From Hyphomonas jannaschiana VP2 (GTDB taxonomy: Bacteria; Pseudomonadota; Alphaproteobacteria; Caulobacterales; Hyphomonadaceae): a stretch of 64,000 bases of DNA. Shown here piece by piece: positions 16,896 through 22,532 of this stretch (its first letter is position 1; every line of letters begins with the position of its first letter). The translations under genes were made by a program, and so were the position numbers. The stretch is from positions 186,001 to 250,000 of the forward strand of contig NZ_ARYJ01000004.1 in NCBI RefSeq assembly GCF_000685215.1. The letters are read 5' to 3'. The notes under the pieces are model-generated. The model ran no database searches, had not been told where the DNA came from, and worked only from the letters and a program-made list of their open reading frames with translations.

Positions 16896-16981
16896 GCGTG
16901 GGCTTAAGGGGAAGCGCGTAGTGTCCATATTCCGGGCTCTCCAGAAGGAGTGCCTGCCCTCTATTGGAAGATGGTGTGGAT

Positions 16982-17254
16982 ATGGAACAGCAGAATGCAA
17001 AACCGATGAGCGTGAAAGGCCCGGATGGCCAGAAGCTCACAATGGCGGATCTCCCGTCGCCGAACATTTCCCGTTGGGTCACGCGCCGCAAGGCCGAAGT
17101 GGTCGCCGCTGTTGCCGGTGGCCTGCTGAGCCGCAAGGCGGCTTGCGACCGCTATAATCTCACGGACGAAGAGTTCGAAGGCTGGGAGCGTCTTTACCTG
17201 CGTCACGGCACGAAAGGCCTGCGCACAACCCGCCTGCAACAGTATCGCCGCTAG
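16982..17254 (+). CDS. sciP: CtrA inhibitor SciP (DUF1153 family)
   Basis: SciP is a small helix-turn-helix protein that binds CtrA at target promoters and blocks its recruitment of RNA polymerase. This restricts CtrA output to part of the cell cycle in Caulobacter. The family core is unmistakable: LPSPNISRWVTRRKAEVVAAV, then GGLLSRKAACDRYNLTDEEF (in outline about residues 25-65), and a C-terminal LRTTRLQQYRR. I choose ATG 16982 (90 aa), close to the known protein's length. TTG 16964 is a possible alternative adding six residues. It lies immediately upstream of the flagellar genes, as in Caulobacter. Unlike there, ctrA itself lies only 4.6 kb downstream. Confidence 0.92.
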   Translation: MEQQNAKPMSVKGPDGQKLTMADLPSPNISRWVTRRKAEVVAAVAGGLLSRKAACDRYNLTDEEFEGWERLYLRHGTKGLRTTRLQQYRR

Positions 17255-17261
17255 GCCGCTG

Positions 17262-17276
17262 TTAAACCCAAATTTA
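17262..17276. promoter_or_regulatory. Candidate CtrA box before the flagellar operon
   Basis: TTAA at 17262-17265 and TTTA at 17273-17276 are spaced by seven bases. This gives seven of eight matches to TTAA-N7-TTAA. Another TTAA half site follows at 17288-17291. The location, between sciP and the first flagellar gene, suits a CtrA-controlled class II promoter. Confidence 0.45.
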
Positions 17277-17336: not shown

Positions 17337-18002
17337 ATGGCGCACGTAGCAACCGGTATTTCGCGCGGCGCGACGCCTTCCACACGGGCGCTCGCGTTCG
17401 CTGCGTGTGCGGTGGCCCTCGGTCTGCTCGCCTGGCGCGGCAGCGAGGTGATGACCCGCGCGCCTGCATCTCCCGGTCCGCTTTCCCAGTCTGAAGCCGC
17501 CCTCCTGTCTGTCGCCGAAGCGATGGCAGGGCAGGGGCATGTCCGCATTTCCCTTGTCCGCCAGCCGGGCGGTGTCCGGCAGGTCCTGCTGCTGGTCGAT
17601 ACGAAAGCGGGTGTGGATGATGCTTCGCTCTCCAACACGGTTTCCCTCGCTGCAGGGCTCGACGCGGCAAAGGGCGAGCGCGTTGATCTCCAGCGCGTCG
17701 CCTTTGCGCCGGGCGTGAGCAGCGCGCCTTTGCCGCGAGACTGGGCGGAGCTGTCTCTGCTGGCCTTGCTGGCAGGCCTCGCCGGATGGATCGGGTTCAG
17801 GACCGAACGCCGTGAAGTGGCGCCTGTGGAGCTGGTGCAGGAAACGCTGCCCGCGCGAATGTCCGCACAGGCCGCCGTTGAACCGGGTGTCCGTCCAGCG
17901 CCGATGCGCGATGACGATGCCGCAGATCTTGCCCGCCGGGACCCTGGCCGCGCCGCCGATGTTGTCCGCGCCTGGATGAGCGGCAATGGAGGCAATGCAT
18001 GA
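17337..18002 (+). CDS. Miniature FliF-like MS-ring protein
   Basis: This 221-aa protein sits where fliF is expected, directly before fliG, but FliF is usually 500-570 aa. Membrane segment 1 spans about 17-33. A short periplasmic part (34-136) follows, in which SLAAGLDAAKGERVDLQRVAF resembles the end of the third FliF ring-building motif. Membrane segment 2 lies at about 137-154. The cytoplasmic tail ends in DPGRAADVVRAWMSG, like the FliG-binding end of FliF. Ring-building motifs 1 and 2 and the beta-collar have no room. The gap to sciP is only 82 bases, so this is not a frameshifted longer gene. Its stop overlaps the fliG start by four bases. A separate full-length fliF elsewhere cannot be excluded. 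Confidence 0.7.
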   Translation: MAHVATGISRGATPSTRALAFAACAVALGLLAWRGSEVMTRAPASPGPLSQSEAALLSVAEAMAGQGHVRISLVRQPGGVRQVLLLVDTKAGVDDASLSNTVSLAAGLDAAKGERVDLQRVAFAPGVSSAPLPRDWAELSLLALLAGLAGWIGFRTERREVAPVELVQETLPARMSAQAAVEPGVRPAPMRDDDAADLARRDPGRAADVVRAWMSGNGGNA

Positions 18003-19826: not shown

Positions 19827-20837
19827 ATGCGTATGAAAATGTTCGCCGCCGAGACCTTCGAGGCTGCCAAGGCGATGATTTTTGCCGAGATGGGAGCCGA
19901 CGCGGTGATCCTGTCCGAGCGCGAAATCGATGGTGGTGTGGAAGTGCGTGCTGCGGTCGACAAGATGGGCGGTGTCGGCATGGTGCCGAACGAGCCGCTG
20001 TTCATGCGCGATGCACGTGGCGGCGGGCATGGCCGTGGCACCGAAAATCCTCTGTTCAGCCGGGTCCGGGATGCGCTGCTCTGGCACGGCGCACCCCAGC
20101 GCTTTGCCGACCGCGTGGCGGCGGAAGGGGCTGGCCGCATTCAGCATGTGAGCGATCCCGAAGAGGCCATCGCAGAAGGCCTGGCCCGTATCGTGACCTG
20201 CGATCCGCTGCCGGCGCGTCTTGATCGTGATGTCGTGCTGGTCGGCCCGCCCGGGCATGGCCGCACCGCGACCGCCGCCAAGCTGACCCGCCGTGCCGCA
20301 ATGGCCCGCGCCGAGGTCGCCCCTGTGGCCGCAGACCTTGATGGCACAGCCGGTGGGGACCAGCTGGCCGCCTATCTGGAGCTGGAAAAGGGCCAGATCC
20401 GGACTTGCCATTCGCCGGATGACCTGTTCGCGACGCTGCGGGCGCTGAAATCCGAAAACCGCCGCTGTGTCATCGACCTGCCGGCGATCAATCCGTTCGA
20501 TGATGATGACATGGCCAGCCTGCAGGACCTGATCTCTGTCATCCGTGCTGAGCCCGTGCTGGTCATGTCGGCCGAAGGCCACCCGGACGACCAGTCTGAA
20601 GCCGCCCGCGGCTTTGCCCGGGCCGGCGTCAAGCGGGCCATCCTGACCAAACTCGATGTTGTCCGAAGGAGGGGCGGGGCCATATCCGCCCTGTCGTCGG
20701 CCGGCATTGCCTTCTCACATCTTGCCGTCACGCCGTTTATCGGCGGTGGACTGGTGCCGGCGGCGCCCATGCGCCTTGCCGCCCTGTTGATGGAAGACGC
20801 CCCGGGCGACGTGATCGCCCTGAAAGGAGCCGCGTAA
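19827..20837 (+). CDS. flhF: FlhF-like SRP-family protein with degenerate GTPase motifs
   Basis: FlhF is an SRP-type GTPase that sets flagellum position and number together with FlhG. The N-terminal B domain is conserved (MRMKMFAAETFEAAKAMIF, then GADAVILS at 23-30). In the G domain (about 135-330), the P-loop reads GPPGHGRT at 140-147, with Arg146 in place of the invariant Lys. The DTAG motif is replaced by DLPA at 217-220, while TKLD at 274-277 is intact. Binding or hydrolysis of GTP may therefore be lost or altered. At 336 aa it is shorter than usual. It lies four bases upstream of flhG. Confidence 0.8.
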   Translation: MRMKMFAAETFEAAKAMIFAEMGADAVILSEREIDGGVEVRAAVDKMGGVGMVPNEPLFMRDARGGGHGRGTENPLFSRVRDALLWHGAPQRFADRVAAEGAGRIQHVSDPEEAIAEGLARIVTCDPLPARLDRDVVLVGPPGHGRTATAAKLTRRAAMARAEVAPVAADLDGTAGGDQLAAYLELEKGQIRTCHSPDDLFATLRALKSENRRCVIDLPAINPFDDDDMASLQDLISVIRAEPVLVMSAEGHPDDQSEAARGFARAGVKRAILTKLDVVRRRGGAISALSSAGIAFSHLAVTPFIGGGLVPAAPMRLAALLMEDAPGDVIALKGAA

Positions 20838-20841
20838 TCCA

Positions 20842-21684
20842 ATGAGTTTCATGATGCGCAAATCGCAGGAACGTCCGGCACCGCGGCCCACACCGCGGCG
20901 GGTGGAACCTGCCTCGATCATCGCGGTTGCAAGCGGGAAGGGCGGCGTCGGCAAGACGTTCATGGCTATCACGCTGGCTTCAGCCTTCGCCCAGGCCGGG
21001 AAACGCACCCTGTTGGTGGATGGCGACCTTGGCCTCGCCAATGTCGACGTCCAGCTCGGGATCGCCCCCGAGACGGACCTCGCCGCCGTGATTGCCGGCT
21101 GGGTCGAGCTCGACGATGCGGTGACGCCGGTTGATGGCGGCGCAGCTGATGGCGGGTTCGATGTGCTGCCGGGCCGGTCAGGGTCAGGCGCGCTGGCTGA
21201 GCTGCCGCCGGAAGAAGTTGCCCGTCTCGCGGCCGGACTGTCCGCGCTGGCCCTGCAATATGACCAGGTTGTTGTCGATCTTGGTGCCGGGATCGAAGCG
21301 AACTGCATGCGTCTCGCCCGTGCCGCCGACAAGGCCCTGATGGTGATTACAGACGAGCCGACGTCGATGACTGACGCGTACGCCTTCATCAAGGTGCTAC
21401 GGGGCTATGCGCCGAATGTTGAGCCGGTGGTCTGCATCAACCAGGCCGACAGCCGCGCTGCCGGCCAGCGGACCTATGAGGCCATTGCCCGGGCCTGCCA
21501 GACATTCCTCGGCTTCCGCCCGCATCTTGCTGGTGTGGTGATCCGCGACCCGAAGGTCCGCGACGCGATCCGGTGCCAGAAAACACTGATTTCCACAGAT
21601 CCTCAGGCTCAGCCGATTCAGGATGCCATCGCCATCAGCCAGATGCTGATCGGGGATGCTCCGGCGGCTGAACTTGGAAATTAA
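20842..21684 (+). CDS. flhG: FlhG (FleN/MinD-like) ATPase
   Basis: This 280-aa ParA/MinD-family ATPase is of the FlhG type, which limits flagellar number and antagonises FlhF. The deviant Walker A SGKGGVGKT lies at 31-39. DGDLGLANVDVQLG (55-68) is characteristic of FlhG, and VVVDLGAGI is the Walker B region. The short basic N-terminal segment MRKSQERP could correspond to the FlhF-activating DQAxxLR region, which I do not see in canonical form. Its pairing with flhF is standard, and ctrA follows 134 bases downstream. Confidence 0.9.
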   Translation: MSFMMRKSQERPAPRPTPRRVEPASIIAVASGKGGVGKTFMAITLASAFAQAGKRTLLVDGDLGLANVDVQLGIAPETDLAAVIAGWVELDDAVTPVDGGAADGGFDVLPGRSGSGALAELPPEEVARLAAGLSALALQYDQVVVDLGAGIEANCMRLARAADKALMVITDEPTSMTDAYAFIKVLRGYAPNVEPVVCINQADSRAAGQRTYEAIARACQTFLGFRPHLAGVVIRDPKVRDAIRCQKTLISTDPQAQPIQDAIAISQMLIGDAPAAELGN

Positions 21685-21818: not shown

Positions 21819-22532
21819 ATGCGCGTCCTGCTAATTGAAGACGATAGCGCCGTCGCGCGTTCCATCGAGCTGATGCTGAAGTCCGCTGGCTTCAACATCT
21901 ACACCACCGACCTCGGTGAAGAAGGTGTCGATCTGGGCAAGGTCTACGAGTACGACATGATCATCCTCGATCTGTCTCTGCCCGACATCTCCGGCTATGA
22001 CGTCCTCAAGCAGCTGCGCATGGGCCGCGTGAATACGCCGGTCATGATCCTCTCCGGTAACCCGGACATCGAAGCGAAAGTCCGCACGCTGGGCTACGGC
22101 GCTGACGATTACCTCACCAAGCCGTTCAACAAGGACGAACTGATCGCTCGTATCACCGCCATTGTGCGCCGCTCCAAAGGCCATGCCGAGAGCGTGATCC
22201 GCACCGGTGAGATCCTGGTGAACCTCGACGCGAAGACGGTGGAAGTGGACGGCGATCGCGTGCACCTTACCGGCAAGGAATACCAGATGTTCGAGCTGCT
22301 CTCTCTTCGGAAGGGCACGACGCTGACCAAGGAAATGTTCCTGAACCACCTCTATGGCGGCATGGACGAGCCGGAACTGAAGATCATCGACGTCTTCATC
22401 TGTAAGCTCCGCAAGAAGCTTCAGCAGGCTACCGGCGGCAACCACTATATCGAAACGGTTTGGGGCCGTGGCTATGTGCTGCGCGATCCGCGTCCGAGCT
22501 CCAAGAACAACGAGGTGGAAGAGGCGGCATAA
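21819..22532 (+). CDS. ctrA: Cell-cycle response regulator CtrA
   Basis: CtrA is the OmpR-type master regulator of the alphaproteobacterial cell cycle, activating flagellar and division genes and blocking replication initiation in Caulobacter. The receiver domain has Asp8, Asp9 and phosphoacceptor Asp51 (LDLSLPD), with Lys in YLTKPF. The C-terminal winged helix includes [12 protein letters not shown] and [12 protein letters not shown]. The protein is 237 aa and ends in Glu-Glu-Ala-Ala. A terminal Ala-Ala is the ClpXP degradation signal in the Caulobacter protein. Its location just after flhG, with sciP 4.6 kb upstream, is a notable arrangement. Confidence 0.98.

Follow-up and report, generated by a model that had tools for sequence, protein, structure and literature searches.

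Whether a partial flagellar motor can be of use is an old question, raised again in the available text of PMC12199754, a survey in which 11% of non-motile species were reported to have rotor proteins but no filament proteins, and in which the question of another function for these proteins was posed; neither FliF nor Hyphomonas occurs in its main text. For FliF, the isolated third ring-building motif (RBM3) of the Salmonella protein (construct 231-438, collar included) was found to form rings and was proposed as the driver of ring assembly, according to the available part of PMC8786727. A hat-shaped inner-membrane structure, which its authors tie to the flagellar export system, was seen in 20 diverse species and also in Hyphomonas neptunium (PMC9380563, as far as available). 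H. neptunium also serves as a model with deletion strains, as described in the available text of PMC7200025, and neither "fliF" nor "fliG" occurs in the main text of that paper. No account of the protein described below was found in searches of an open-access full-text library.

The window analysed here is a stretch of 64,000 nucleotides from H. jannaschiana VP2. The original prediction had pointed to a 221-aa protein directly 5' of fliG and overlapping it as a miniature FliF (mini-FliF), less than half as long as a normal one, and the ORF was indeed found intact, with an overlap of 4 bases with fliG (Table 1). The gene order in the window is sciP, mini-FliF, fliG, a 139-aa gene, fliN, flhF, flhG and ctrA. 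Our best reading is that mini-FliF belongs to a second rotor and stator set, separate from the swimming flagellum. Numbers with G, L, C and g denote our handles for genomes, loci, contigs and genera.

Table 1. Features of the mini-FliF locus of H. jannaschiana VP2, in window coordinates
Feature	Position	Strand	Basis
sciP (CtrA inhibitor), opens the conserved neighbourhood	16964..17254	+	NCBIfam NF051866, 130.1 bits against a cut-off of 100
CtrA-box-like site, TTAA-N7-TTTA	17262..17276	+	begins 75 bases 5' of the mini-FliF start
mini-FliF, 221 aa	17337..18002	+	intact ORF, ATG start
TM helix 1 (TM1), residues 14-40	17376..17456	+	AlphaFold2 helix; assigned to the membrane by its sequence
RBM3 core, alpha-beta-beta-alpha-beta, residues 51-121, without collar	17487..17699	+	AlphaFold2 and PDB profile alignment
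TM helix 2 (TM2), residues 133-154	17733..17798	+	AlphaFold2; aligned to FliF TM2 (hhalign)
Predicted FliG-binding-like C-terminal helices, residues 192-214	17910..17978	+	alignments and AlphaFold2
fliG of mini type, 310 aa	17999..18931	+	FliG_N, FliG_M, FliG_C (Pfam)
FliH N-terminal half, 139 aa	18931..19350	+	profile comparison, E 1.5e-7
fliN, 88 aa	19347..19613	+	FliMN_C, 7e-22
flhF-like GTPase	19827..20837	+	FlhF TIGR03499, 5.3e-23, 82.4 bits, below the curated cut-off of 174.15
flhG-like MinD-family ATPase	20842..21684	+	name rests on adjacency to flhF
ctrA	21819..22532	+	NF045991, 411 bits against a cut-off of 350

Homology and predicted fold of mini-FliF

At E<=1, neither Pfam nor NCBIfam gave a family match for the single mini-FliF sequence, which is thus missed by single-sequence libraries; PF01514 (FliF) likewise gave no match to it in its own genome. 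The relationship to FliF that the original prediction had proposed was found by profile searches. Compared by hhalign with full-length FliF from elsewhere in the family (19 sequences, other genera), 29 mini members gave an E value of 8.1e-8 over 60 columns spanning the end of RBM3 and TM2, and the comparison with five FliF of the flagellar-cluster type gave 1.1e-7 over 123 columns and reached the C-terminal tail. When a 41-member mini profile was searched against all PDB sequences, six matches were obtained, the best four of which were FliF (best E 1.4e-6), the remaining two being weak and unrelated (E 0.0037 and 1.2). The strongest PDB alignment pairs mini-FliF 93-222 with Salmonella FliF 407-559, and a second one, weak alone (7.2 bits), pairs 46-76 with 239-269. 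The alignments listed for FliF proteins from the family and from elsewhere in the Alphaproteobacteria showed the same two-part split.

The AlphaFold2 model (mean pLDDT 76.6, pTM 0.50) showed a domain of RBM-type fold, composed of helix 51-64, strands 69-75 and 81-88, helix 95-106 and strand 115-121, with a pLDDT of 93-97 for the block. Both of the membrane segments expected for the protein correspond to helices of the model, and only 10 residues separate TM1 from the single RBM, so RBM1 and RBM2 are absent and there is no space for them, as had been supposed. What had been taken for just the end of the third ring-building motif is RBM3 by identity, and its whole core is present; it is the collar insertion that is absent. 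The C-terminal tail, with helices at 192-201 and 203-214, is predicted from the model and the profile alignments to resemble the FliG-binding tail of FliF, in agreement with the earlier suggestion. A Foldseek search with the model gave no match at E<=0.001 (best matches 0.015 or worse), with Salmonella FliF at ranks 2, 12 and 20 (probability 0.99) and an unrelated dehydrogenase at rank 1.

The missing Pfam and NCBIfam matches, together with the weak Foldseek result headed by an unrelated protein, could be read as signs that mini-FliF is no relative of FliF at all, a reading that we regard as extremely improbable, as it is contradicted by the profile searches and by synteny with full fliF. An unrelated small membrane protein was ruled out by the hhalign and PDB profile matches. 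The profile alignments and AlphaFold2 resolve the protein into TM1, a collar-less RBM3, TM2 and the tail, and mini-FliF is a true FliF descendant. From its RBM3, mini-FliF may form a ring in the membrane; such a ring would be unlikely to house an export gate without RBM2.

Distribution, conservation and selection

The family sample consisted of 105 genomes, with 78 in five genera bearing mini-FliF and 27 in five other genera. The mini profile matched 80 of the 105 genomes, including seven weak matches (0.0005 to 0.005) in genera g3 and g35 which were taken as the ends of full FliF (frames of 560-624 aa in six, 109 aa in the seventh). Mini-FliF was present in 73 of the 78 genomes of the five genera: 41 of 42 in Hyphomonas, 26 of 29 in Henriciella, 3 of 3 in g37, 1 of 1 in g34, where the match is apparently cut by a contig edge, and 2 of 3 in g32. 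The 73 include G166, with a partial and weak match (8.3e-7). One sequence searched against 150 genomes of the order gave 29 full matches, confined to two genera of the family and including that of the window, and one further weak match, containing three stops, in another family. The mini profile searched against the ORFs of 37 loci (L190-L226) gave 31 matches, of which 30 were FliF-sized (524-584 aa) and one was an ORF of 303 aa (L224) starting inside a FliF-like frame. No viral relatives of the mini-type FliG were found in a scan of viral contigs with a single protein.

An intact mini ORF stood at the same place, with fliG directly 3', in all 29 loci fetched first, that of the window included. 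In a second collection of 43 loci (L147-L189), which has many genomes in common with the first, a mini ORF of 213-241 aa preceded fliG in every locus, and sciP, the FliH half and fliN were also found; Hyphomonas oceanitis (L180) has the one frameshifted mini among the 43. The two collections, with the presence in 73 of 78 genomes, rule out a frameshift or assembly error, as the original prediction had argued from the flanking sequence. In H. oceanitis SCH89 (L180, L145) the mini gene is split over two frames near its end; fliG, the FliH half and fliN remain.

For 18 of 21 pairs, the dN/dS of mini-FliF was 0.07-0.22, and that of FliG in the same pairs was 0.03-0.14; the other three pairs gave 0.30, 0.30 and 0.40 for mini-FliF at dS of 1.0-2.4. 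Mini-FliF is mostly under purifying selection. Selection within lines without a flagellum is weakly shown, the sole pair in which both genomes lack one (G164, G026) having a dN/dS of 0.40 at a dS of 1.7. A relic was among the options raised earlier; a slowly decaying relic of a lost ancestral flagellum is strongly disfavoured by these values in the 18 pairs, by the retention of mini-FliF in the great majority of genomes, and by the fact that genes at four loci have been retained together; the three higher values, the frameshift in H. oceanitis, the split fliG of G209 and the long branches would agree with a relic, as would the absence of mini-FliF from three of the 12 genomes without a detectable flagellum.

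Operon partners and ancestry of the locus

In genomes G200 (g35) and G168 (g4), a full fliF occupies the place of the mini gene, in the order sciP, fliF, fliG, fliN, flhA, flhF, flhG. The mini-type FliG has FliG_N, FliG_M and FliG_C above the Pfam cut-offs (50.4, 56.9 and 115.4 bits) and stays below the NCBIfam equivalog cut-off (139.4 vs 226.7 bits). In a tree made by a quick method with a very long outgroup row, the 29 mini-type FliGs formed one group (SH-aLRT 100) on a long stem, apart from eight family rows paired with full FliF (two of which are the same gene) and also apart from the FliG of the flagellar cluster. G209 (L137) has its mini-type fliG in two pieces, ORFs of 240 and 75 aa, through either a real loss or a sequence error.

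The 139-aa gene had no convincing family match by itself in Pfam or NCBIfam. By hhalign it matched 17 proteins of 202-218 aa at the FliH position in other genera, over columns 5-114 of 221 (E value in Table 1), and it thus aligns to the N-terminal half of FliH only. Missing is the C-terminal half, through which FliH binds the export ATPase FliI. This truncation parallels that of FliF. An extra FliMN_C frame of 85-101 aa, apart from the fliN linked to fliG, was observed in several genomes of genera without mini-FliF (G168, G197, G199, G213, G220 and others of g3, g4, g33 and g35).

A second rotor and stator set beside the swimming flagellum

A search of the H. jannaschiana VP2 genome found a full FliF of 503 aa at C8:95081-96592, in a separate flagellar cluster that has its own FliG, FliN, FliM-like protein, MotA and MotB, with FliH recognized by place. 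A full-length fliF elsewhere in the genome, foreseen in one of the earlier options, was thus confirmed, and the proposal that the miniature takes the place of the flagellar MS-ring gene is not supported; as the MS-ring of the swimming flagellum, mini-FliF is excluded by this full FliF. The second set of the same genome consists of FliG and FliN in the mini operon, a FliM-like protein on C1, MotB2 on C2 and MotA2 on C12.

Two MotA_N matches were found in 63 of the 64 genomes that have both mini-FliF and a flagellum (one match in G177), and two or three MotB_plug matches in all 64. In the other five genera (27 genomes), none had two MotA_N and one (G220) had two MotB_plug matches. Genomes with both mini-FliF and a flagellum have a single FlhA and mostly five Flg_bbr_C matches, as in the genera with one flagellum. 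Export genes were surveyed by FlhA alone, which was present in 92 family genomes and gave two or three matches in six, namely G199, G201, G218 and G219 (second systems or split contigs) and G178 and G158 (partial matches resembling split genes).

MotA2 of H. jannaschiana passes the NCBIfam MotA1 equivalog cut-off (308.5 vs 303.8 bits). MotB2 keeps the MotB_plug with its Asp (YADF) and the OmpA domain and does not reach its NCBIfam equivalog cut-off. In the H. jannaschiana copy of the FliM-like protein, FliMN_C was matched and the FliM middle domain remained below the cut-off (E 0.059); no PDB match was found for it at E<=0.01. As judged by eye, the torque helix of MotA2 keeps an R or K plus an E, and the aligned rows of the mini-type FliG keep the torque Arg and at least one acid, under the E. 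coli residue numbering that we assumed for both proteins. In E. coli, MotA R90 and E98 face FliG D288-D289 and R281 (available part of PMC12505986).

The FliG of the swimming flagellum (L002, C8:92274-93386) was observed to lack several conserved residues of the torque region, e.g., the Lys of LKGA, which the mini-type FliG keeps. MotB2 (L138 7607-8293 and relatives) is about 40-80 residues shorter than MotBs of the flagellar type, mostly in the periplasmic linker, and a shorter linker would bring the peptidoglycan anchor closer to the membrane.

The second set could also be an accessory of the swimming flagellum, with mini-FliF, FliG and FliN in or beside the basal body or with MotA2B2 as an alternative stator. 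This is consistent with a flagellum (FlhA and rod/hook matches) in 64 of the 73 genomes with mini-FliF, with flhF and flhG in the operon, which are probably shared with the flagellum, and with CtrA-like control. We consider it unlikely, because separate FliF, FliG, FliN, MotA and MotB are encoded in the flagellar cluster, the two FliGs lie very far apart in the tree, and the second set is kept in nine genomes (five of them bins) that have no detectable flagellum.

Genomes without a detectable flagellum

Genomes with neither FlhA nor any rod/hook match were regarded as without a flagellum, and 12 of the 78 were of this kind. Mini-FliF was kept in nine of them (G041, G195, G026, G159, G164, G166, G208, G151 and G152), and PF01514 found no FliF in these nine. 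All nine had a single FliG_C, two FliMN_C and a single MotA_N match, with FliMN_C counted as domain matches (the FliM-like sequence was examined in H. jannaschiana), and MotB_plug was single in seven and absent from G166 and G208. The MotA of G041, G195, G026, G159 and G164 has 54-64% identity to MotA2 of H. jannaschiana as against 39-41% to its flagellar MotA, and the MotB of G041, G195, G159, G164 and G151 has 40-56% identity to MotB2 as against 31-34% to the flagellar MotB. By these identities, the stators examined (MotA in five and MotB in five of the nine genomes) match the second set and not the flagellar ones. In the three genomes without either flagellum or mini-FliF (G150, G155, G167), FliG was absent from all three and MotA and MotB were each absent from two; FliMN_C was retained twice in G155 and once each in G150 and G167, and G167 also kept MotA and MotB. 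The loss of mini-FliF and that of FliG, MotA and MotB are linked in these three. On the quick tree of 29 mini-type FliGs, the state of the flagellum changed at least five times when absence is taken at face value.

The completeness of the nine genomes is 80-100% (99-100% for G041, G026 and G159), and G041, G195, G026, G159 and G164 are metagenome bins. Since the flagellar genes form one cluster, a single unbinned contig could imitate the absence of a flagellum, and the absences of FliF, FlhA and rod/hook matches are not independent facts. In G026 the expected flagellar site falls on an assembly break: the contig next to it begins inside a 23S rRNA gene, and in G065, which has a flagellum, about 8 kb separate this rRNA operon from FliF. 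None of the other contig ends of G026 (two for each of 24 contigs, which total about 3.57 Mb of some 3.6) carried the remainder of the 23S gene, the 5S gene or the intervening genes, so that an assembly gap at this site is possible and even suggested. In G041, the right flank of the G036 cluster continues within contig C10 into genes that were unmatched in the compared parts of G036 C2 (5-205 and 236-259 kb, the cluster itself at 205-236 kb being left out), and this flank differs between species (G000 vs G036); we regard this synteny as mildly supportive of true loss. Overall, the second set appears to persist in relatives without a detectable flagellum.

A static polar scaffold, in which a mini ring with FliG-FliM-FliN would mark the pole together with FlhF/FlhG and produce no torque, fits the presence of flhF downstream in 26 of the 43 loci (some of the rest being short contigs) and of flhF-flhG beside the mini operon in three Henriciella without a flagellum (G026, G159, G164); the two genes were not found there in G041 or G195. 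The retention of MotA in nine and MotB in seven of the nine genomes, and of the torque-helix residues and the MotB Asp in the rows examined, speaks against such a scaffold, which we rate as rather improbable.

CtrA-box-like sites

The window contains three CtrA-box matches at <=1 mismatch where 1.65 are expected, and 21 of 100 shuffles reach three, so the match in the window is not significant alone. Every one of the 43 loci had a site of this kind (<=1 mismatch) 41-100 bases before the mini gene, exact in 8 and with one mismatch in 35. For each of these related loci the best-scoring position within up to 140 bases was taken, and base shuffles reached the observed score in 0-4% of cases per locus. 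An assumed CtrA consensus was used at 17262..17276 and in the relatives. A box (<=1 mismatch) also preceded one of eight motA2 (L229), none of eight motB2 and the one FliM-like gene examined (L139), and CtrA control of the dispersed stator genes was not convincing on these counts.

Proposed explanation

We consider it fairly probable that a flagellar rotor and stator, without export and axial parts, have been reused in a role other than swimming. This explanation builds on computed homology, domain loss, synteny, conservation and the copy-number pattern; from these we infer ring formation, torque and polar placement, and the output is a guess. A fliF-fliG-fliH-fliN...flhA...flhF-flhG locus of the kind ordinary in the family was probably present beside sciP in the common ancestor of Hyphomonas, Henriciella and their allies. 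In the mini lineage flhA would have been lost from this locus, RBM1, RBM2 and the collar would have gone from FliF, and FliH would have been cut to its N-terminal half. What remains are the parts for ring and torque, namely mini-FliF, FliG and FliN, with the FliM-like protein and MotA2-MotB2 spread over three other loci; swimming is handled by the separate flagellar cluster.

The likeliest assembly would be an RBM3 ring with FliG-FliM-FliN and MotA2B2. RBM3 would make a ring in the inner membrane, the mini-FliF tails would hold FliG, and FliM-FliN would complete the C-ring on mini-FliF/FliG. Peptidoglycan-anchored MotA2B2 would couple ion flow to torque on this C-ring, FlhF/FlhG may place the motor, and CtrA may switch it on. 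Since an RBM2 ring, an export gate and a rod are all lacking, nothing could be secreted or spun outside, so the output of such a motor would have to be internal. Our leading guess is a sensor of polar load or of surfaces that would feed the swarmer/stalk programme. As a more tentative extension, we propose a complete turning motor of flagellar descent under CtrA control, without export apparatus, rod, hook and filament and with an internal output; as part of the same extension, and held no more firmly, this output may be a polar mechanosensor or a new type of drive.

The deletions in FliF and FliH follow one logic, in which the parts tied to export are lost and the torque parts and dedicated stators stay, and this pattern spans 73 genomes, including several lineages without a detectable flagellum. 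Judging from its genus, H. neptunium should carry the mini gene, and the motor question is directly testable since deletion strains have been made in this species (available text of PMC7200025).

Comparison with known systems

Of the hat-shaped structure described in the available part of PMC9380563, the mini set shares the inner-membrane location and the relation to flagellar parts; the 20 diverse species and the link to the export system indicate that it is not the lineage-restricted mini set. The resemblance to the ZorAB proteins of Zorya is limited to MotB2, which is weakly ZorB-like, mostly in the OmpA part, whereas MotA2 has no Zorya match and passes the MotA equivalog cut-off, and a FliG-FliN rotor set is present. 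Zorya defence was ruled out by these two properties of MotA2.

With FliF, mini-FliF has in common TM1, the RBM3 core, TM2, the FliG-binding-like tail and the place 5' of fliG; it differs in having 221 aa instead of about 500-600, in the lack of RBM1, RBM2 and the collar, and in the normal FliF being encoded elsewhere. It represents a natural RBM3-only FliF, which is useful for asking which domain sets the size of the ring. With regard to the flagellar rotor and stator, FliG, FliM, FliN, MotA and MotB all have second copies (the FliM-like one by its C-terminal domain only) in which the interface residues are kept where examined, whereas there is no second FlhA or rod/hook set and FliH is of half length. 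In comparison with the rotor proteins without filament proteins reported in the available text of PMC12199754, the present case is a definite set that combines a re-cut FliF with dedicated stators, and it hints at a rotary motor used for something other than swimming.
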